Positions 5,741 through 23,848 of a stretch of 64,000 nt of DNA are shown here, one piece after another. The notes beneath the pieces were generated by a model. The model was not told where the DNA came from. It did not search any database and worked only from the letters and a program-made list of their open reading frames with translations. Numbering within the stretch: position 1 is the first letter of the stretch; every line of letters begins with the position of its first letter. The position numbers and the translations under genes are program-made. The stretch is from Enterococcus sp. DIV0212c (GTDB taxonomy: Bacteria > Bacillota > Bacilli > Lactobacillales > Enterococcaceae): positions 74,487 through 138,486 of the forward strand of contig NZ_JAFREN010000012.1 in assembly GCF_017377505.1 (NCBI RefSeq). The letters are read 5' to 3'.

Positions 5741-6673
5741 CTAGTTTTCTATCGTAAAATCTAGTCTTTTTTGCAGCCAATTACTGATTGCTTTATATAC
5801 CTCGTTTTTTTCATCTTCTAACAAAATTTCATGACGTAACTCTGCAAACAAAACAAGGGATACATCCTTTATTCCAGCCTTGTCTAAATCTTTTGCGACC
5901 TTTCGAGGTCCTTTGCCGAAATCACCGACAGGATCTTGCTCACCACTAATAACTAAGATCGATAAATTTTGATCGATCTTCTCTGCCCAGCCAGTACGAT
6001 TAGCTCCGTCAACTAAGCGAAATAGTGTATAGAAGCCATTATTTGTAAACGTGAAACCTGTTAACGGATCATTTTCATAGCGTCTAACATTGTCCTGACT
6101 TTTACTCAGCCAATTAAATCTACCTGCTTCTGGAAATTGTTTGCTAAAATCACCGAATGCTAATTGATCCAGCCGTTCATTTGTTTTTTCCGGCGCAGTT
6201 AAGTTCAACGTATTCGTTAAAGAGAGCGCTACAGGTAGCAAGGTAGCTTTTTTCCCCGTTCCCATAAAAATGGCTCCACTTATTTCTGGTTTATAGAATT
6301 GCAAATAATTACGCAATGCAAAAGAACCCATACTATGCCCCAACATAAAATGAGGTAGCTTCGGATAATGTTCTGTTATCCATTCCTTGATCTGATGAAT
6401 ATCTTTCAATACAAAAGATACTGGGTCTCCTTTACCAAAATAGCCATGTTTTGTAGCATCTTTGGCAACAGATTCACCATGGCCCAAATGGTCATGACCA
6501 ACAACGACATAGCCTAGACCATTCAAATATTCAGCAAAATCATGATAACGTTCGATATATTCCGCCATTCCATGAATAATCTGAACAACTCCAATAGCTT
6601 CTTGTTCAGGTTCCCAACAGATAAAATGGCTCATTGTTTTTTGATCCGATGACAAAAAAGTATTATGCAGCAT
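5741..6673 (-). CDS. Alpha/beta hydrolase, monoacylglycerol lipase/lysophospholipase-like
   Basis: 310 residues of the Hydrolase_4 family. IHGMAEYIERY gives the oxyanion region, GHDHLGHGES (59-68) is the diagnostic motif, and GHSMG (112-116) holds the nucleophile Ser114. The acid is in GEQDPVGD and the base is His in ELRHEIL. It probably hydrolyses acyl glycerols or lysophospholipids. The start at 6673 has GAGG 7 nt upstream. A 44-codon upstream extension has low-complexity composition and no ribosome binding site. It is transcribed divergently from the next gene. Confidence 0.88.
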   Translation of the reverse strand: MLHNTFLSSDQKTMSHFICWEPEQEAIGVVQIIHGMAEYIERYHDFAEYLNGLGYVVVGHDHLGHGESVAKDATKHGYFGKGDPVSFVLKDIHQIKEWITEHYPKLPHFMLGHSMGSFALRNYLQFYKPEISGAIFMGTGKKATLLPVALSLTNTLNLTAPEKTNERLDQLAFGDFSKQFPEAGRFNWLSKSQDNVRRYENDPLTGFTFTNNGFYTLFRLVDGANRTGWAEKIDQNLSILVISGEQDPVGDFGKGPRKVAKDLDKAGIKDVSLVLFAELRHEILLEDEKNEVYKAISNWLQKRLDFTIEN

Positions 6674-13906: not shown

Positions 13907-15379
13907 TCATCTTTTACCATGTAGTTCGCGAATTTTCATTCTGATTTGATTGATATCATAAGTCGATCCTAATTCGGATAACACATAAACCTCTTTTGCA
14001 GATCGATAATTATTTGGCTTCATGACATTTGTGATCATTAAGTCATATGTCCGTTTGGAATCATAAGGCTCAATCGTTAAACCATTCAAATTTTTCAAGC
14101 TCAAAACTAATACCTGCGTCATTACTTCCTTATACAGATGATCCATCTTCAAATCAATTCCGATACGTGTTTCTCCGACAATCTCAAAATCAATGATTGC
14201 CAGCACACTTAAATACTTCACCAATGACCATTCATGTAAGCTATTACCTTGTTCATACTTCGTATCAAAGCATTCTAAGCTTTTATCTAAAAGAACATGT
14301 GAGAAATCTGCTAATTGATGACTAGAAAGATGCTGTTCTTTTTGCCATATATTTTCCCGATCAAACAACTCCAACTCTCCTTTAAAAAAATACAGCCGGC
14401 TATGAATCTGAGAAAAATAATAAAAAATCTTTTTCTCTAATTCCGGGAAAAATTTTTGCGGACGATAATACAAGATGACATGTTCCAACACAAATGTATC
14501 CGCCAAAGAAGTTGGGGTACGCCGCCCTCGAATCAAACTATACGCAGCAAAATCCGACTGGGCTAAAACCGACATACTCGTTAAAAAAATAAAATGCAGT
14601 AAACTTTCTTCTTCATCGATTTCAAGAGGATAACGACTAAAAAAACGGATCACAAATGCGCGCAATGTTTTGAAAAAAGGATCTTGTTCGTAGCTTTTAC
14701 TTTTGCTATATAATTCTTTAAATACTTTTGACTGAACCAAGATTCTTTTTTTACTGATTGTCAGCCACAAGCTAATTTTCAATTTGCTATATTCTTCAAA
14801 TGAAAGAGACAACGCCTTTTCCAAAGCTTCGATGATTCTAGAATTTTGAACAGTCAGTGTTTTTTCTCGATGAACCTCATAAGGGGTTAAAAACCAATAA
14901 ATTTGAAAATAAAAATAACGAATCTGCAGTTCTTCCCCTTTTAATTGTCCATTACGGATTCTAAGCTCAAACTCTTGCAGCAACTGATTTAATTCTTTGA
15001 TTTTTCTGAATAACGAAGACTCACTGATCATAAATTTGGTCGTTAATTGAGCAATCGTAAATTCTTGATAATGAAATAAATGATCAATCAGCTGAAACTT
15101 GATCGAAGCCCGAACATAATCATCTAAAACCTTACTGACAGAAAACTGATCTGACATGTGGAGCGCCACCCATTGTCCATCATAAAATAACGAACAATCT
15201 TTTTCATAGGGTTTCAAATAATAGCCTAGCTCTTTTAAATCACTTTCAAAAGAAGCCTTTGAGACACCTAAATAATCCAATAGCTCTGTATCAGCTATAC
15301 GCCCGCCAGCTAAAATTACTTTTCTCAAAATACCAATTTCTCTTGCTTCTTTTTTATCAAGTAATTCTTCAATCTTCAT
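13907..15379 (-). CDS. Mga-family (helix-turn-helix) transcriptional regulator
   Basis: 490 residues. The N-terminus holds an HTH (ARIADTELLDYLGVSKASFESDLKEL region, about 25-55) and a second Mga-type HTH (TIAQLTTKFMISESSLFRKI, about 108-130), followed by a long helical region like the PRD-derived part of Mga/AtxA proteins. It probably controls nearby genes in response to carbohydrate state. ATG 15379 lies inside the end of the upstream oxidoreductase gene (11-nt overlap), and GGAG is 8 nt before it, so both are made from one message. Confidence 0.75.
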   Translation of the reverse strand: MKIEELLDKKEAREIGILRKVILAGGRIADTELLDYLGVSKASFESDLKELGYYLKPYEKDCSLFYDGQWVALHMSDQFSVSKVLDDYVRASIKFQLIDHLFHYQEFTIAQLTTKFMISESSLFRKIKELNQLLQEFELRIRNGQLKGEELQIRYFYFQIYWFLTPYEVHREKTLTVQNSRIIEALEKALSLSFEEYSKLKISLWLTISKKRILVQSKVFKELYSKSKSYEQDPFFKTLRAFVIRFFSRYPLEIDEEESLLHFIFLTSMSVLAQSDFAAYSLIRGRRTPTSLADTFVLEHVILYYRPQKFFPELEKKIFYYFSQIHSRLYFFKGELELFDRENIWQKEQHLSSHQLADFSHVLLDKSLECFDTKYEQGNSLHEWSLVKYLSVLAIIDFEIVGETRIGIDLKMDHLYKEVMTQVLVLSLKNLNGLTIEPYDSKRTYDLMITNVMKPNNYRSAKEVYVLSELGSTYDINQIRMKIRELHGKR

Positions 15380-16703
15380 CTGCTTCACTCCATAAACCAG
15401 CTAAAGCCAACTGGTTCGTTATATCTAGAACGTTAGAAAAATAAGGATGATACAAAAAATCTTTTTGGTAAAACTCTTCCAATGTTTGCCCCATTTGAAT
15501 ACCAAGAGCAAGTGTGTTGATTTTTTCTAAGATATTAGCTTTTGAAACTAATTGAGCACCTAGAATTTTATGGCTGTCTACTTCATAAATAATTTTCCCG
15601 GTGATTTTTTCATTCCCTAAAAATGAGGAACTGTATTGTTCAACCTGTGAGGCGGCAATTGGCTGCTCATGAAATAACCCTTCTGCTTCGGTCAAACCTG
15701 TACTTGCTATATAATAATCGACAAGTTTTGTCCCAATCGTGCGAATCGACCCAACAAATGGCGTTGTGGATTCTACAAGATTTTGAGCAACAACCAAGCC
15801 CGTTCTTACTGCATTGTTCACTAATGGGATATAAAATGATTCATTCGACAAACTATACGGTACTTGAATACAATCACCAATTGCAAACACATCTGCTTGA
15901 GAGGTTTCTAAGTATTCATTCACAATAACAGTCTGATCTGTATGTGTTTTGATAGCTTCATCTAAATAACCCAAATCAGGCCGTACATTCATCGCAAAAA
16001 TAGCAGAGTCACATAATAAGTGAGATTTTTTCGTCTCAATTATCAGCCCGTCTTCTGTATCGTTTATTTTTTCTACAGTCTCATCAAAATGAAAAACGAC
16101 TCCTTTGGCTCCTAGTTCTTCTTGGACTGGCTGAATCATTTCTTGATCAAAATACTTAAATAATAAGTAATCCATCCGCTCAAACAAATGCACTTCTTTT
16201 CCTTTTTTCACCAATGTATCGGCTGCTTCTGCTCCGATCTGACCACCGCCGATCAAGGCTACTTTATCACTTGTTTCCAATTGCTCGATTGCTTGTATAA
16301 CGCCAGGTAAAAATTTATATTTTAAAACCTTTTCCGAATCACTGCCCAGAATTTTCTGTGACCATTGACTTGAACCAGTCGCTAAAATCAGTTTATCAAA
16401 CGACATAAGAGATTCTGTCTCTTGTGTCTCACATTTGATGGTATGCTGCTTTGAATCCATACTGACTACTTTTGTATTTAATAATAAGTGAATGTCTTTG
16501 TCTGCCAATTGTTTTTCTGAAATAAATTGAGCTTCTTCGACAGGTTCAATCACTTCATTAAAATAAAGATTGATCCCACCTGGTAAATAACCAACTGTTT
16601 GTTGTTTTTCAATTAAATAAATTTCAGCTTTAGGGTGTTTTTTCCTAGTCGCTAACGCAGCAGATACTCCGGCAAAAGAAGCGCCAATAATCACAACTTT
16701 CAA
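15369..16703 (-). CDS. NADH oxidase/peroxidase-like flavoprotein lacking Cys42 and His10
   Basis: 444 residues with the full pyridine nucleotide-disulfide oxidoreductase fold: FAD motif VVIIGASFAG (3-12), NAD motif VALIGGGQIGAEAAD (about 147-161), FAIGDC (FAD ribityl-binding), and a C-terminal dimer domain. In NADH oxidase and peroxidase, Cys42 and His10 form the redox centre. Here the aligned positions are Gly42 (LPGGINLYF) and Phe10, so the usual Cys-sulfenate chemistry is impossible. FAD and NAD(P)H binding is likely retained. It is co-transcribed with the Mga-like gene and lies beside glp, where GlpO makes H2O2. The substrate is unknown. Confidence 0.8.
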   Translation of the reverse strand: MKVVIIGASFAGVSAALATRKKHPKAEIYLIEKQQTVGYLPGGINLYFNEVIEPVEEAQFISEKQLADKDIHLLLNTKVVSMDSKQHTIKCETQETESLMSFDKLILATGSSQWSQKILGSDSEKVLKYKFLPGVIQAIEQLETSDKVALIGGGQIGAEAADTLVKKGKEVHLFERMDYLLFKYFDQEMIQPVQEELGAKGVVFHFDETVEKINDTEDGLIIETKKSHLLCDSAIFAMNVRPDLGYLDEAIKTHTDQTVIVNEYLETSQADVFAIGDCIQVPYSLSNESFYIPLVNNAVRTGLVVAQNLVESTTPFVGSIRTIGTKLVDYYIASTGLTEAEGLFHEQPIAASQVEQYSSSFLGNEKITGKIIYEVDSHKILGAQLVSKANILEKINTLALGIQMGQTLEEFYQKDFLYHPYFSNVLDITNQLALAGLWSEADED

Positions 16704-16867: not shown

Positions 16868-17782
16868 TTAATTTCCCTTAAGAAAAGCTTGGATTGCTTC
16901 AGCATTCTGCTGCTCATCTAGCTCAATAACACTACCAGACTCCGTGTAATCATTGAAGTTCCATGAACCTTCTACCGGAACTGAAAGTGATTCTAATGAT
17001 TTTACTTTTCCAGATAAGAAATCTTTAGCTAAATCGATCAAGAGGTTAGTCGGGACATTGGTATCGATTTTACCAACTAGTTTTCCTGCAACTTGTGGCA
17101 ATTCCCATACTGGAATCAAATCTTTTGACTGATCGATCAATGCATCCATGACTTGTTGCTGACGTCTTATACGACCAAAATCTCCTTCTTCATCCATTCT
17201 AAAACGTGCATATTGTAATAAGCTATTTCCATGCAACGTCTGCTTGCCTTTAAATATATCGACACCATCTAGATTAATATCTTTTTCAGCTTCGATCGTG
17301 ACTCCTTTTGGATATAGCTCGTCAATAATATCGCTGAACTCTTTAAAATCCATCACCACATAATAATTGATTGGTAAATTAAAATTACTCTTCAGTACAT
17401 CTTTTGTCATTTGTGCACCACCGTAAGCGTATGCTGCATTTATTTTATCTAGTCCGCCATCAGGAAATGTTACATAACTGTCTCTCATGATCGAAATCAA
17501 TTTAGGCTGTTTCGTTTTTCCATCATAGTGCGCGACCATAAGCGTATCTGAACGACCTTGATCCTCGTCGTCATCTCTCGAATCATTTCCGACTACCATC
17601 ACAGTCAGTTCTTTATCGCTTGTTTGCTCATCACCAGTAAAATTTTGGTTTTTATCAGAAAGTTTTGCTTCACTTTTTTCTTTCGCTGTTTGAAATGAGA
17701 TCGCGGCATAACAGCCTGCACTAACGACCACTAAGAGAATAGATAATAACGTAATAATTCCTATTTTTACAGATTTTTTCAT
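16868..17782 (-). CDS. LCP (LytR-CpsA-Psr) family cell-wall polymer ligase
   Basis: 304 residues. One N-terminal membrane anchor (about 7-29) is followed by an extracellular LCP domain: VVGNDSRDDDEDQGRSDTLM, SIMRDSYV, and RRQQQVMDALI near the C-terminus. The Arg and Asp residues of the Mg2+/pyrophosphate site are present. LCP proteins attach teichoic acids or capsule to peptidoglycan. The ATG at 17782 has GAAAGGA upstream. An M-box Mg2+ riboswitch with its own terminator lies in the leader (17823-18075), so transcription is likely raised when Mg2+ is low. Confidence 0.92.
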   Translation of the reverse strand: MKKSVKIGIITLLSILLVVVSAGCYAAISFQTAKEKSEAKLSDKNQNFTGDEQTSDKELTVMVVGNDSRDDDEDQGRSDTLMVAHYDGKTKQPKLISIMRDSYVTFPDGGLDKINAAYAYGGAQMTKDVLKSNFNLPINYYVVMDFKEFSDIIDELYPKGVTIEAEKDINLDGVDIFKGKQTLHGNSLLQYARFRMDEEGDFGRIRRQQQVMDALIDQSKDLIPVWELPQVAGKLVGKIDTNVPTNLLIDLAKDFLSGKVKSLESLSVPVEGSWNFNDYTESGSVIELDEQQNAEAIQAFLKGN

Positions 17783-17822
17783 TGTTGATTCCTTTCTACA
17801 ACTCGAATGTTTTGCGGTGTAC

Positions 17823-17855
17823 AAAAAAACCTCCACCAAGAACACTCAGCGAAGG
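17823..17855 (-). terminator. Expression-platform terminator of the M-box
   Basis: On the minus strand CCTTCGCT pairs with GGTGGAGG (8 bp with wobbles) around a 10-nt loop, followed directly by seven T. Its left arm CTTCGCTGAGT can alternatively pair with ACTCAACGAAG near 17920-17931 in the aptamer (10 of 11), a classical antiterminator choice. Confidence 0.7.
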
Positions 17856-17864
17856 GATTAGATT

Positions 17865-18075
17865 ACAGGGGTTAAAACTCACGACGACCGCCAGTTATTT
17901 ACAACTTACCTAGATCTTCTCTTCGTTGAGTTTTAGCACTATATAACGTAAAAAGCATTGCTTTTAGCTGCTTTGAAAATCGCCTTAATTCGACGACTTT
18001 TGTCCTACCCGTGCCTGTCTTTCGACATTTCTGAGCAGCAGCCTATGTTTATATAGGAGCCTCACCTAACAAGTA
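17865..18075 (-). promoter_or_regulatory. M-box (ykoK) Mg2+ riboswitch aptamer
   Basis: Read on the minus strand, the conserved M-box blocks appear in order: GTTAGGTGAGGCTCCTAT at the 5' end, GGCTGCTGC, GAAATGTCGAAAGAC, GGGTAGGACAAAAGTCGTCGA, AAGGCGATTTT, CAGCTAAAAGCAATGCTTTT and ATATAGTGCTAAAACTCAACGA. AAAACTCA can pair with TGAGTTTT downstream (closing stem), freeing the terminator when Mg2+ is bound. M-boxes normally precede mgtE, mgtA or corA genes. The next gene here is an LCP protein. Confidence 0.9.
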
Positions 18076-18090
18076 TTTAATTCATTTTAC

Positions 18091-18119
18091 ACTATAAGCG
18101 TATCGCCTCACAAAGTCAA
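18091..18119 (-). promoter_or_regulatory. Promoter of the M-box/LCP transcript
   Basis: TTGACT (18114-18119), 17-nt spacer, TATAGT (18091-18096) on the minus strand. The predicted start is about 10 nt before the M-box. The remaining 18120-18393 shows nothing else recognisable. Confidence 0.75.
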
Positions 18120-18393: not shown

Positions 18394-18891
18394 ATGGATA
18401 ATTTTTTAGAGAAACAGCAAGAATTCTTTTTTAATTTTTTAACCGATAGCATTGATAACTTTTTATTAGATCACTCGGATGAAACATTTTATGCGTTTGC
18501 ATTGGACTGCAATATCCATGAAGAAGGTGAGATAAATCTCTGCTTTAATACGACAGAACTTTGGCAAGAAACCACCGATTACTATACAGCTAAAGGTTAT
18601 AACAATCAACAAATCGAACAAATGAAGTACAATGCCGGCGACTGGGACGAAGATCAACGTTTTACTTCTCTTCATTTATTTGATGATTGGGTGGAAGATG
18701 ATGAAGATATTGAAACTGTTCTTGAATGGCTTTGTCAGCAAATACTGCTCTTACTAGAAAGTGAGACTTTTCAGCGCATTCCTAAAACAGACGATTTCAA
18801 ACTGTTAGTTTATGATCATGATGAAGATCCGTCCGACTCACACGATCGATTTGAAAAAATATCAGTTATTGACTATTTTCAAATCGACTAA
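18394..18891 (+). CDS. DUF4303 family protein
   Basis: 165 residues, very acidic and soluble. FYAFALDCNIHEEGEINLCFNT is the DUF4303 core, and YNAGDWDEDQRF and WLCQQILLLLESETFQ follow. DUF4303 proteins are small, often stand-alone, and some lie next to polymorphic toxins as possible immunity proteins. No toxin gene is seen nearby. TTTGGAGG precedes ATG. A hairpin follows at 18910-18953. Confidence 0.8.
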   Translation: MDNFLEKQQEFFFNFLTDSIDNFLLDHSDETFYAFALDCNIHEEGEINLCFNTTELWQETTDYYTAKGYNNQQIEQMKYNAGDWDEDQRFTSLHLFDDWVEDDEDIETVLEWLCQQILLLLESETFQRIPKTDDFKLLVYDHDEDPSDSHDRFEKISVIDYFQID

Positions 18892-19581: not shown

Positions 19582-20628
19582 TTAATTCTGTTTTTTCTTA
19601 CGCCACAAAATATATCCTTGAATAAGGACGAGTAAAGCTAATAAAACAATCACTAAAATCAACCACATAGGAACTTTACTTACAACCTTAGTTTCTTTAT
19701 TTTCTTCATTGATTACCTTCGCTTGTTCCCTAGTAATCTCAAATTCATTTTCAAATGCCCATTTTTTCCCCTCTTGATTGATCAGCGTTTTACTAATATA
19801 TTTTCCGGGTTGTAACTGTCTTTTGATTGGCACTGGAAAATCCATCACAGAATCTGGCGCCATTTCCAACGCTTCTTTTTCCAACTTGATCAAAGGAGTC
19901 TCTTCCCCTTTTTTTCGAATTTCAAATTTTAGGTTCATTTTCTTTGAAATTGCTGCATTTTTATTGCGAATCGCATGAATCACTGATATTTTTTTTCCTT
20001 GTTTGGATTTCGCTACTTTTACTGAATCCATTTCATAATCAGGTAAAACCGATGTATCTGTCTCGTTCAAGACAACACCGACAACATAATGAAATCGCTG
20101 ATTGATGGTCACATCTTTATTTTTAGTTTCACTTTCAGGTAAATTTTTGGTAAAACGCAGTCCACCTACAATAACACCATCATATTTTTCCTTTGGCATT
20201 TTCAAATGAAAACGAGCAATTTTCGTTTCATATGGTTGCAAAGAAATATTCGTCTCAAGTACCTTGATCAACGATTCAAAAGGATACTTCAAGCTTTTAT
20301 CTTTAACCCCTCTTAAAGTGTAATCGATCATTCCCTCTTCCGTAGTCGTTGCGTTCAACGCATTGACTGAAATAGAAATTGGCTCATCTTCTGGATTGAC
20401 TAACTTAACTTGCAACTCTTGTTCTGCTTCTGGCAATATTCGCAAATCAAAATATGATTTGTTGAGATCAACTTGATTCTGCGGAATAACTGCTTGTACA
20501 TAAAAACTGTTTGTTTCTTCACTCTTTTCTTGCGCCAAAACAACTTTTGTATTCAATAAACTAAATAAAAATATAATTGCAATAGGAAAAAATGTATAAC
20601 GAATGTTTAACCGAAAGCACCCTCTCAT
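19582..20628 (-). CDS. WxL-interacting protein (DUF916-DUF3324), cluster 1
   Basis: 348 residues. Signal peptide (1 to about 33, ending VVLAQ), then DUF916 (about 38-155, with SYFDLRILPEAEQELQVKLVN), DUF3324 (about 165-300), one membrane helix (about 318-340) and a KKKQN cytoplasmic tail. Such proteins bind WxL proteins and peptidoglycan at the outer face of the membrane. AAAGGAG precedes ATG 20628. It follows the small WxL gene after an internal terminator hairpin. It is a paralogue of 37215-38291. Confidence 0.9.
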   Translation of the reverse strand: MRGCFRLNIRYTFFPIAIIFLFSLLNTKVVLAQEKSEETNSFYVQAVIPQNQVDLNKSYFDLRILPEAEQELQVKLVNPEDEPISISVNALNATTTEEGMIDYTLRGVKDKSLKYPFESLIKVLETNISLQPYETKIARFHLKMPKEKYDGVIVGGLRFTKNLPESETKNKDVTINQRFHYVVGVVLNETDTSVLPDYEMDSVKVAKSKQGKKISVIHAIRNKNAAISKKMNLKFEIRKKGEETPLIKLEKEALEMAPDSVMDFPVPIKRQLQPGKYISKTLINQEGKKWAFENEFEITREQAKVINEENKETKVVSKVPMWLILVIVLLALLVLIQGYILWRKKKQN

Positions 20629-20654
20629 TTAATTCACTCCTTTCATTTAATCAG

Positions 20655-20696
20655 AAAAAAAGAGTGGAATAAAATACTGCTCATCCCACTCTTTTT
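20655..20696 (-). terminator. Internal terminator between WxL gene and its anchor gene
   Basis: AAAAAGAGTGG ... CCCACTCTTTTT with a 17-nt loop. On the minus strand a T-run follows. Located inside the cluster, it could lower anchor-protein transcription relative to the WxL protein. Confidence 0.75.
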
Positions 20697-20712
20697 AGAT
20701 CACGCTTTAATT

Positions 20713-21315
20713 CTATGGCGCATCAGCCAATGTCCAGTCGATCGTAGAGGTATGTTTACCAAGTGTTGCCATTGCTGCTGGCACTTCTAGTGTCACGCCT
20801 GTGTTTTCAGCATCTGGCCAAGTGAATGTCCATGTTCCAGCACCTGCTCCTGCTGCAGCAGTTGCAAATGGTGTCGCAGTTGCAGCTCCGCTCGTTAATT
20901 TGACTGTATTAACTGGTGTTGGTGCATCTGCATCACTATTTGTGCCTGCTTGTGTATTTTTAAAATTCAAGCTGGCATTCGGTAAAGAAGCCGCAGCGGA
21001 ACTGTTTTTAAAACCATTTAATTTTCCACTAAGTTTCCAGCCGGCATTTGTTCCGCGAGCATCAGAAACAACCACATTGATCGTATCAGGATTTGTCGGA
21101 ATATAAGAAGCATCATTTACTGAGATTGTTTGTGACGCATAGCTGATTGTAGAAACAGCTTCTAAAGTTAAAGCTCCTGGTGTAAATGTAACATCCAAAT
21201 CAGTTGCTTTATTAATATCAGCAGCTGATGCAGATTGACCTAAAAATAATGTACCAAAAACAATCGATAAGAGTAAAACTTTGGAACCAGTGTTAACGAA
21301 CGTTGTATTTTTCAT
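20713..21315 (-). CDS. WxL domain surface protein, cluster 1
   Basis: 200 residues. Signal peptide (about 1-32, ASAAD cleavage region) followed by a WxL domain covering the rest of the protein. Both diagnostic motifs are present: GWKLSGKL (first WxL) and IDWTLADAP (second WxL, at the C-terminus). WxL domains bind peptidoglycan non-covalently and display proteins on the surface. Composition is rich in A, T and N, as usual for the family. Middle gene of the cluster. Confidence 0.93.
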   Translation of the reverse strand: MKNTTFVNTGSKVLLLSIVFGTLFLGQSASAADINKATDLDVTFTPGALTLEAVSTISYASQTISVNDASYIPTNPDTINVVVSDARGTNAGWKLSGKLNGFKNSSAAASLPNASLNFKNTQAGTNSDADAPTPVNTVKLTSGAATATPFATAAAGAGAGTWTFTWPDAENTGVTLEVPAAMATLGKHTSTIDWTLADAP

Positions 21316-21349
21316 TTTCTACACCCTTTCTTTATTAAAAAATCCTATT

Positions 21350-23848
21350 TTATTTGGCACCGACAGAAACAATGGTTCTACCACTTGCCGCTGACTCAGT
21401 ACCAAGTGTTGCCGCTGTATTAAAGGTAATCGACGTACCAGCTGCTAATTGACGACCAGAAATATCTAGTGAAAACGTGCCGTCTGCATTAACGGGTGTT
21501 TCTTCATAAACATTTCCAGGGAACCTCACTCTCACTTTAAATTGAGTCCCTTCTGGAGGATTAACAATCTTAACAGTTCCTTTGATTGCTGTATCACCAA
21601 CAAAAATTGGTGCTACAACTGGTGTAGGCACAACATAACCTTCTAAAGATGGGATCTTACCGACTGCAAAAACTACGCTATCACTTTCTTTCCCTTTTAA
21701 AGATTGAGCATGTTCTGCAACGGTTACTAATCTCAGTGGATTACCTTCTTTCAAGTTTTTATCTGCTACAGGAATCGAAAAAGTACCATCATTTTCAATC
21801 GCTACTTTTCTCACAGAACCATCAGAAAATTGGACTTGCATAAATAATTTAGTCCCTGTAGGAACATTTGTTAACGCAATTGAACCTGTGATCACTTTAC
21901 TTCCTTCATTAACAGTTTTGAATTGCGGTTTTGGAACTTGATAGTTTTTCAACGGATCCACGATAACTTGTTTGATTTCTGGTTCACTGACATTTGTTCG
22001 TTTACCATCACTCGCTTCAACAGTTACTTTCAATGAGTCGTTCCCTTGAGGTTGATACTTACCAAATGGAATCGTAAAGCTGCCATCTTCATTGATTGAA
22101 GCAGTTAAATTAGTGCCATCAGGTAATGCCACTTTGGCAGTAAAAGTCACACCATTTGGAATAGGCTGAGTTAGATCAACACTTCCACTAAGACTAAGTG
22201 CACCTTCTAAAACATCACCAATCACTGGTTTTGCAACCACATAATGTAAAAATGGATCAGCTAAGACTTGTTTGATTTCCGGTTCACTGACTTTGGTTTG
22301 TTTTCCATTACTTGCTTCAATCACTACTTTTAATTGATCATTACTTTGTGGTTGATAGTTACCAAATGGAATCGTAAAACTACCATCACTATTTACTGTA
22401 CCAGTCAGATTAGTTCCATCTGGCAACTCGACTTTCGCTTTAAAAACCACGCCTTCTGGTACTGGTTGAATGATTGGTACATTTCCTTTGAGACTTGTCA
22501 TACCTTCTATAACATCCTCAACAACTGGTTTTGCAACTGGGTATTTCACAAATGGATCCGCTATTACTTGTTTAATTTCTGGTTCACTAGTTTTGCTATA
22601 TTGACCTACACTTGCTTCAATTACAATTTTTAGCTGATCATTTCCTTGAGCTTCGTAGTCGCCAAACGGAATTGCAAATGTTCCATCTTCATTCACCGTT
22701 CCAGATAAAATCGTTCCATTAGGCAATTCAAGTTTCGCTTTAAAACTCACACCTTGTGGAACCGGCTGTGTAATCACTACACTTCCATTAAGACTCGTTA
22801 CACCTTCTAAAACATCTTCAACAACTGGTTTTGCAACTGGGTACTCAGCTAACGGATCTTCCTCCACCTTATCAAAATAAAGATTGATGGCATCACCATT
22901 TGCATGAATCGTATTCAATAATTCTAAATCGATGACGGGTTTATTCACTGCCATCGCAGTAACTTTCGCTTTTTCAGCCGTTACATCAGATACTTTAGTA
23001 GAAAAATCGAAATCAACATCTCCAAGTACATTGGCTTGTAACGCCTGTGTTAATACATCAGATGTGCCATTAGCTATTTTCCCTACAAGATCAAGTAACC
23101 CATTAACAGCTGGTTTTAGTAAATTCAGCACAGGATTCAATATTGCCAAAAGTCCAGTAAATTTTAATCCGTCTACTGCTTCTTTTAATGGATTAAATAA
23201 ATTAGCATACGTTGAACGAACATATTGTCCTAACCCATCCGTAAAATCGACCATGACATATTTTCCATCTGGTGACAATTCGCCTTCAACTGAAGCATGA
23301 TAGCTGCCTAAATCTTGAAGAGAATTAAGCCCTTCAAACGCTTTTTCCAATGAGTCTAGTTGTAAGCCTAAAGGTTTTGCCAACCCAAGTAATTTAGTCA
23401 CTAAACCGCCTACATTTAAAATCAAATCCTTGACCACAGGAACATCCCCAGGAACAATAGGAAGAAGTTTGGCATTCGCATTGATTACAATTGGTCCATC
23501 GATCTTACCCCGTAATTCTTCTGGAATCGCAAAAACAATAACCTTTGGCGATATTAAACCAACATCAGCAACGGCTGTTCCTTTAAACGAAAGGTCTAAA
23601 TCATATGTAGAATCTTCATTTTTTTCCAACTTGACACCATCGTTGATGATTGTTCCATTGTTGGAAGATAATTGTGTTCCTTTTAAAATACTGACGTCTG
23701 CTAAATCCGCAGCATTTGCCGACTCAGCAGCACTCACTTCATACTCACTATTGTCCCTAAAAAATAACAGTGAATTCGGAATGACTGCGGCAGATAGTAA
23801 AGCTGTAGTCCCCACTAACGTAATTATAGAACGATAACGCTTTTTCAT
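21350..23848 (-). CDS. Large secreted surface protein with five ~100-residue repeats, cluster 1
   Basis: 832 residues. Signal peptide (1 to about 40), a unique 290-residue region rich in hydrophobic leucine-containing helices (about 45-330), then five Ig-like units of 100 residues (331-430, 431-530, 531-630, 631-731, 732-832). The first three are nearly identical (DP..YPVAKPVVEDV at the start, SEPEIKQV at the end). There is no LPxTG anchor and no WxL motif, and the protein ends IVSVGAK, so surface retention must depend on partners such as the neighbouring WxL proteins. AGGAGG precedes ATG 23848. Likely adhesin or structural component; the ligand is unknown. Confidence 0.85.
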   Translation of the reverse strand: MKKRYRSIITLVGTTALLSAAVIPNSLLFFRDNSEYEVSAAESANAADLADVSILKGTQLSSNNGTIINDGVKLEKNEDSTYDLDLSFKGTAVADVGLISPKVIVFAIPEELRGKIDGPIVINANAKLLPIVPGDVPVVKDLILNVGGLVTKLLGLAKPLGLQLDSLEKAFEGLNSLQDLGSYHASVEGELSPDGKYVMVDFTDGLGQYVRSTYANLFNPLKEAVDGLKFTGLLAILNPVLNLLKPAVNGLLDLVGKIANGTSDVLTQALQANVLGDVDFDFSTKVSDVTAEKAKVTAMAVNKPVIDLELLNTIHANGDAINLYFDKVEEDPLAEYPVAKPVVEDVLEGVTSLNGSVVITQPVPQGVSFKAKLELPNGTILSGTVNEDGTFAIPFGDYEAQGNDQLKIVIEASVGQYSKTSEPEIKQVIADPFVKYPVAKPVVEDVIEGMTSLKGNVPIIQPVPEGVVFKAKVELPDGTNLTGTVNSDGSFTIPFGNYQPQSNDQLKVVIEASNGKQTKVSEPEIKQVLADPFLHYVVAKPVIGDVLEGALSLSGSVDLTQPIPNGVTFTAKVALPDGTNLTASINEDGSFTIPFGKYQPQGNDSLKVTVEASDGKRTNVSEPEIKQVIVDPLKNYQVPKPQFKTVNEGSKVITGSIALTNVPTGTKLFMQVQFSDGSVRKVAIENDGTFSIPVADKNLKEGNPLRLVTVAEHAQSLKGKESDSVVFAVGKIPSLEGYVVPTPVVAPIFVGDTAIKGTVKIVNPPEGTQFKVRVRFPGNVYEETPVNADGTFSLDISGRQLAAGTSITFNTAATLGTESAASGRTIVSVGAK
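21959..22858 (-). repeat. Three tandem 300-bp repeats inside the surface protein gene
   Basis: Codons 331-630 are three in-frame 300-bp units with high similarity. Recombination between units could change protein length between strains. Confidence 0.85.

Follow-up and report, generated by a model that had tools for sequence, protein, structure and literature searches.

The window examined here, a 64,000-nucleotide (nt) stretch of contig NZ_JAFREN010000012.1 from Enterococcus sp. DIV0212c taken at its full length, carries an M-box (Mg2+ riboswitch) aptamer upstream of a gene of the LCP (LytR-CpsA-Psr) family. M-box, promoter, terminator and LCP gene lie on the minus strand throughout, and their predicted parts are arranged as follows.

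18091..18119, minus strand: sigma-70-type promoter-like site TTGACT-17-TATAGT, about 10 nt 5' of the aptamer
17912..18080, minus strand: M-box (Mg2+) riboswitch aptamer, RF00380, covariance model match to the full model (1-169)
17921..17931, minus strand: predicted antiterminator 5' arm ACTCAACGAAG, within the aptamer 3' closing strand
17844..17854, minus strand: predicted antiterminator 3' arm CTTCGCTGAGT, which doubles as the terminator 5' arm
17830..17855, minus strand: predicted intrinsic terminator hairpin, 11 pairs (several G-U)
17823..17829, minus strand: terminator T run, 7 T
17791..17797, minus strand: putative ribosome-binding site AGAAAGG, read by eye
16868..17782, minus strand: putative LCP glycopolymer transferase, Psr-like, 304 amino acids (aa), PF03816

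An initial annotation, made from the letters of the window, had proposed a complete M-box, without mention of the strand, and named a covariance search as a check. With cmscan, RF00380 matched the window over model positions 1-169 at 141.7 bits (gathering score 44, E 5.4e-32), and 43 of the 46 consensus pairs of the aptamer are standard. The other parts it had described were recovered as well: the promoter at 18119-18091, the terminator as an 11-pair hairpin (17855-17830) followed by TTTTTTT (17829-17823), and the LCP gene, whose start codon at 17782 stands 40 nt beyond the T run. Of the 18 leaders aligned (the window among them), 17 keep the motif TTGAC(T/A) + TATAGT, and 17 have GAAAGGA at the ribosome-binding site, which is missing from L052. 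Neither the promoter nor the terminator is significant alone (four promoter-like sites in the region vs. 6.4 expected in shuffles, and one terminator-like site vs. 0.6), and both calls were accepted because of their position and conservation.

The competing antiterminator of the initial annotation also held up. Its arms, ACTCAACGAAG shared with the aptamer and CTTCGCTGAGT shared with the terminator, pair at 10 of 11 positions, and their pairing disrupts five aptamer pairs. When the downstream 105 nt were shuffled with dinucleotides preserved, 17 of 1000 shuffles paired equally well. In minimum-energy folds the antiterminator is present in RNA without the terminator 3' arm and the terminator is present in the full RNA. 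Judged from the sequence, this platform should be an OFF switch with high Mg2+ terminating transcription. Transcription would start just 5' of the aptamer; at high cytosolic Mg2+ the aptamer would fold and retain its 3' strand, the terminator would form and the polymerase would halt before the LCP gene, and at low Mg2+ the aptamer 3' strand would instead pair with the terminator 5' arm, leaving the LCP gene free to be transcribed. It is scarcely credible that the M-box acts on another neighbour while the LCP gene is driven by a promoter of its own: a divergent gene begins at 18394, but the M-box reads away from it and the T run is just 40 nt from the start codon. A separate LCP promoter 3' of 17823 had been named by the initial annotation as a possible refutation, and the scan gave no promoter-like site between the T run and the start codon.

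The LCP product matches PF03816 at 153.9 bits (cut-off 24.6). Its best solved relative is MsrR (LcpA; 6uex, 184 bits) of Staphylococcus aureus. The LCP catalytic pattern R-X-D-X20-RD...R-X-R...D-X2-R-X2-RQ is intact at residues 77-208 (regular expression; the pattern is that of PMC5059904, slightly loosened), and the product is a putative glycopolymer-to-peptidoglycan transferase. It scores 151.8 bits against the TagU equivalog NF006897, far below the curated cut-off of 441. Psr/LcpA of Enterococcus hirae (ftsW-lcpA-pbp5) is likewise an LCP protein, and two Psr copies from the E. lactis/E. mundtii genus, L135 and L139, share 51-53% identity with the window LCP; however, the window gene has an M-box of its own, lacks the ftsW and pbp5 neighbours of a Psr/LcpA orthologue, and lies on a tree branch separate from the Psr copies.

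Conservation across Enterococcus was a further check named at the outset. In 18 of 22 genomes of the window's genus, window included, the M-box core lies 286-355 nt upstream of the window-type LCP gene. The antiterminator arm and the terminator 5' arm show little variation among the aligned leaders and the intervening stretch is highly variable. E. moraviensis, E. caccae, E. ureasiticus, E. quebecensis and E. plantarum have M-box LCPs 88-92% identical to that of the window. A tree of LCP proteins (29 of 48 M-box rows after near-copies were dropped, plus 26 rows without an M-box; Asn-type LCPs, described below, excluded) needs five changes of the M-box label vs. 18.5 in shuffles, its deep part being unsure because of two long-branch rows (L129 and L132). 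At least one M-box LCP with the Asp form of the catalytic motif is kept in all 21 genus genomes that have an M-box before wall genes; the 22nd genome, G086, has no such M-box. That genome does have a weaker M-box (L080, G086:C6; 94.8 bits), and the genes behind it read by eye as a GntR-type regulator and sugar-PTS-like genes.

The remaining genes near the leader are listed here.

15369..16703, minus strand: pyridine-nucleotide-disulphide oxidoreductase, 444 aa, 164 nt after the LCP gene, possible co-transcription
13907..15388, minus strand: AcpB/EbpR/MafR-family regulator, overlapping the end of the flavoprotein gene behind LCP
18394..18891, plus strand: divergent DUF4303 gene, upstream of the riboswitch
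19582..23848, minus strand: WxL surface-protein cluster (WxLIP, WxL protein, putative adhesin)

No terminator-like site was found in the interval between the LCP and oxidoreductase genes. The window LCP gene has 17 other M-box loci, and in 15 of them it is followed by an open reading frame of 410-478 aa (compared by length only); that frame has 346 aa in L045, and L052 has none.

M-boxes across the Enterococcaceae

In all, 251 M-boxes were collected from 105 Enterococcaceae genomes in three sets (95 + 103 + 53; the filters of the 53-set were stricter and weak matches were lost there). Genes were read behind 248 of them (left out: G078:C1:840873, G073:C2:113158 and G090:C1:252058) and were labelled by phmmer against a few reference proteins, not by Pfam per gene. 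We counted 140 transport-type loci, 95 with wall genes, 5 with an ABC transporter and 8 with nothing recognised. The transport-type loci comprise 99 with a P-type ATPase alone, 15 MgtC-GNAT-ATPase, 10 GNAT-ATPase, 12 MgtE and 4 other MgtC loci. The 95 wall loci have the following gene orders, where SEDS stands for FtsW/RodA-type genes.

LCP: 21
PAP2-LCP: 14, and 1 with PAP2 split over two frames
LCP-SEDS-SEDS: 14 (one LCP decayed)
SEDS-SEDS-PAP2-LCP: 13
SEDS-SEDS: 8
SEDS-LCP-PBP5: 6
SEDS-SEDS-LCP: 5
SEDS: 3
LCP-PBP5: 3
PAP2: 2
SEDS-SEDS-PAP2: 2
SEDS-PAP2-LCP: 2
SEDS-PAP2: 1

Of the 105 genomes, 57 carry an M-box before wall genes, and these belong to 6 of 17 genera (21/22, 1/1, 14/20, 13/15, 6/6 and 2/3 genomes per genus; 0/38 in the other eleven genera). 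Named records with such M-boxes are E. plantarum, E. moraviensis, E. caccae, E. ureasiticus, E. quebecensis, E. larvae, E. lactis, E. mundtii, sp. 669A and sp. 665A. Wall M-boxes are recurrent in the family and the window is no one-off. Among the 37 loci scanned from a set of 80 LCP loci, 11 match an M-box, all of them in Enterococcus; the 26 M-box-free loci include those of E. pallens, E. canintestini, E. phoeniculicola, E. diestrammenae and Enterococcus sp. BWB1-3 and loci of Listeria, Vagococcus and Bacillales. Outside the family, 16 loci were read from the best-scoring M-boxes in 198 genomes of the order, and all of them lead transport-type genes.

The window genome has five M-boxes, of which three lead LCP-domain genes: the window LCP, a second LCP followed by two SEDS genes, and a PAP2-LCP gene. 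The statement of the initial annotation that the M-box controls an LCP gene and not a Mg2+ transporter stands for the window copy, but the other two M-boxes of the same genome lead P-type ATPases. One M-box class had been labelled PAP2; this label was rejected after the gene proved to be a PAP2-LCP fusion. The PAP2 phosphatase-LCP fusion is found behind an M-box in L102 (3157-4734, minus strand), L006, L140 and others, and the full copy of a relative (L102) contains both PF01569 and PF03816 by Pfam; the window genome's PAP2-LCP (L002) was read as a partial frame, and the genes behind the M-box are partial in several loci.

Three further arrangements were seen in the collection. An M-box precedes a two-gene ABC transporter (permease of 585-590 aa + ATPase) in five genomes (L173 and L175-L178). 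Operons of MgtC, a GNAT acetyltransferase and a P-type ATPase stand behind the M-boxes of L066-L068, L071-L077 and relatives. The 1.1-Mb E. raffinosus plasmid p1_Er676 (L326), whose record is unannotated, has two M-boxes of 151.2 and 132.7 bits whose starts are 4.5 kb apart.

It could be argued that rearrangement brought M-boxes beside wall genes and that these leftover or spread elements no longer respond to Mg2+. The LCP gene before the SEDS pair is indeed lost or decayed in four genomes (L087, L095, L096 and L097), in which the window-type M-box copy is intact. However, with about 138-166 bits the wall-leader aptamers fall in the upper range of the M-boxes collected; the antiterminator and terminator arms are kept in the window class, and a terminator-like hairpin lies within 170 nt behind 85 of the 95 wall M-boxes (scan without shuffle control); and M-boxes are combined with wall genes in six genera and many gene orders. 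We consider a loss of Mg2+ response very improbable.

SEDS copies and the Asp/Asn position in LCP domains

In the window's genus, four SEDS genes are present in each of the 17 genomes that carry an M-box SEDS pair and two in each of the other five, which indicates that the M-box pair is additional; the remaining two are presumably the housekeeping FtsW and RodA. The LCP catalytic pattern was found in its strict form in 48 of 95 wall loci and in 74 of 95 when Asn was allowed for Asp. Thirteen of the 21 pattern-free loci were read with just 1.5 kb of flank, and the rest are SEDS or SEDS-PAP2 loci plus one decayed LCP (L097). In loci with a PAP2 gene, every LCP domain read (23 of 23) carries Asn in place of the Asp of R-X-D. 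TagU has Asp at this position, and Asp is kept by the window LCP and by 48 of 51 LCP domains of wall loci without a recognised PAP2; among the other three, L197 is an Asn case and resembles the PAP2-linked type. By the spacing to the next Arg, this Asp appears to correspond to Cps2A D246, one of two Mg2+ ligands (PMC7831098).

These observations bear on the possibility that the M-box paralogues need less Mg2+ and take over from Mg2+-hungry enzymes, by analogy with the zinc-free ribosomal proteins under Zur. The SEDS pair, additional to two other SEDS genes, is consistent with such a replacement, as is the Asn found in place of a putative Mg2+-ligand Asp in every LCP domain read from the PAP2 loci; PAP2 phosphatases, moreover, are known as Mg2+-independent, unlike BacA-type UppP. 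On the other hand, Asn could equally mean altered or lost activity, and a Mg2+-sparing replacement is not the whole answer because the window LCP and the 48 of 51 domains noted above retain Asp. We regard it as a possible but rather doubtful explanation.

The ftsW-psr-pbp5 operon

In the E. lactis/E. mundtii genus, 9 of 15 genomes have psr-pbp5 behind an M-box, and in six of them a SEDS (ftsW) gene comes first. This arrangement is present in two named strains, E. lactis CCM 8412, which is of the ftsW type, and E. mundtii Pe161, in which no ftsW was recognised. Counted by eye, the PBP5 of L155 differs from the solved PBP5 6mkg at just two of 678 positions. On the E. faecium plasmid p5_70kb (strain Dallas 5) an M-box of 138.9 bits stands before FtsW, LCP and transpeptidase genes, the LCP gene being shorter (756 nt).

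A palindrome, GAAAAGGT-N5-ACCTTTTC, and a predicted promoter, TCGAAA-19-TATATT, have been described upstream of E. faecium ftsW (PMC13148053, 2026). In L325 the published palindrome and promoter letters are found with the same 19-nt spacing at 6286-6316. The aptamer occupies 6102-6268, so that they lie 18 to 48 nt past it, within the hairpin AGGTCAGAA...TTCTGACCT and immediately beyond. Their distances to the start codon are not the same: the paper gives 101 and 76 nt, whereas L155 has 108 and 83 nt to the start assigned here and L325 has 156 and 131 nt to the annotated start. In the predicted fold of L325 before the terminator 3' arm, the aptamer 3' strand pairs with TTGTTCGA as an antiterminator, and the completed RNA forms the terminator. 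It seems fairly likely that an enterococcal Mg2+-riboswitch wall-synthesis regulon includes ftsW-psr-pbp5 of the E. faecium/E. lactis group and that the published palindrome and promoter are the terminator region of the switch. Variants of croS increased the operon mRNA, and nusG and rpoB variants increased PBP5 without more operon mRNA (PMC13148053), which points to other control layers on the pbp5 operon.

A proposed low-Mg2+ cell-envelope regulon

The aptamer, its platform, the gene order and their conservation, as read from sequence, make it very probable that the window feature is an M-box attenuator of the LCP gene in a low-Mg2+ cell-envelope regulon of enterococci; from them we infer a Mg2+ response in the cell, its direction, the transcription of the operons and their purpose. 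The regulon would comprise accessory LCP ligases, SEDS peptidoglycan polymerases and PAP2-family (carrier-lipid-type) phosphatases, to which the low-affinity transpeptidase PBP5 would be added in the E. lactis/E. mundtii genus and in the named E. faecium record. These enzymes work on wall precursors carried by undecaprenyl phosphate, or on the resulting wall: SEDS proteins polymerise, PBP5 cross-links, LCP proteins attach glycopolymers and PAP2 phosphatases can recycle the carrier.

Several observations weigh against this interpretation. Operons were assigned by strand and spacing alone. The window-type LCP gene has no M-box core within 1.5 kb in 4 of the 22 genus genomes (L053-L056), three of which have an intact LCP-SEDS-SEDS copy. 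For 10 of the 95 wall leaders the automatic scan returned no strong terminator, although four of these are of the window LCP class with the same arms visible in the alignment, and some of the 85 hairpins may be chance because they are placed unlike those of relatives (L016, L049 and L099). The consensus aptamer + terminator fold (-63.7 kcal/mol) lies 7.8 kcal/mol above the free minimum (-71.5, terminator formed) and also above the antiterminator fold (-69.9), in an energy model that contains no Mg2+ contacts. Folding of the whole leader was no better than shuffles (z -1.12), and this energy was dropped as evidence; the case for a switch is made by the covariance score, the shared arms and the conservation. 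MecA_N-type (PBP5-type) penicillin-binding proteins are present in 81 of 105 genomes and just 9 were found behind an M-box, so most PBP5-type genes are not M-box-led, the window genome's own among them. CroRS acts on the E. faecium pbp5 operon (PMC13148053, PMC11077988), and psr and pbp5 have been described with promoter regions of their own (PMC11077988).

As to purpose, the initial annotation proposed storage: at low Mg2+ more anionic polymer might be attached to the wall, which would thereby trap Mg2+. No element is more frequent behind wall M-boxes than an LCP domain (pattern in 74 of 95 loci) and LCP enzymes are Mg2+-dependent (PMC7831098), both of which would suit such storage. However, SEDS, PAP2 and PBP5 are also in the set, and peptidoglycan synthesis or carrier recycling need not add anionic charge; extra anionic polymer could even compete with the cell for scarce Mg2+. 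We consider storage unlikely. With SEDS, PAP2 and PBP5 in the set, the regulon would cover peptidoglycan synthesis and lipid-carrier recycling besides polymer attachment, and a broad low-Mg2+ wall-synthesis regulon fits better than Mg2+ storage. Its likely purpose is sustained wall assembly under Mg2+ scarcity.

The window element is like the known M-box/ykoK leader (Mg2+-I riboswitch, RF00380) in its aptamer, its terminator-antiterminator platform and its expected ON state at low Mg2+, but the usual association with Mg2+ transport, which is typical and not defining, is absent from the window copy. Known M-box targets are cation transporters, Mg2+ transporters above all (PMC7266159), mgtA is a target in Listeria (PMC12824596), and a survey of RNA regulons assigns M-boxes to metal homeostasis (PMC3766115). 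The c-di-AMP (ydaO) riboswitches are likewise tied to ion transporters and wall-remodelling genes (PMC3766115, PMC7266159), but their ligand and RNA differ from those of the M-box. In searches of an open-access full-text library, in which most hits were judged by title and abstract and which did not extend to subscription papers or databases such as RegPrecise, no paper linked an M-box to LCP, ftsW, psr or pbp5.

If the inclusion of ftsW-psr-pbp5 is true, low cytosolic Mg2+ would raise PBP5, the transpeptidase that underlies intrinsic tolerance of beta-lactams. Psr, the founding protein of its kind, would then belong to a Mg2+ regulon, among wall enzymes for scarce Mg2+. Wall mutants of Bacillus subtilis are rescued by Mg2+, which suggests a physiological link that a wall M-box regulon would make testable. 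The simplest reading is that enterococci probably gain wall-building capacity as cytosolic Mg2+ drops, which would carry the role of the Mg2+ riboswitch beyond ion transport, to the assembly of peptidoglycan and glycopolymers.
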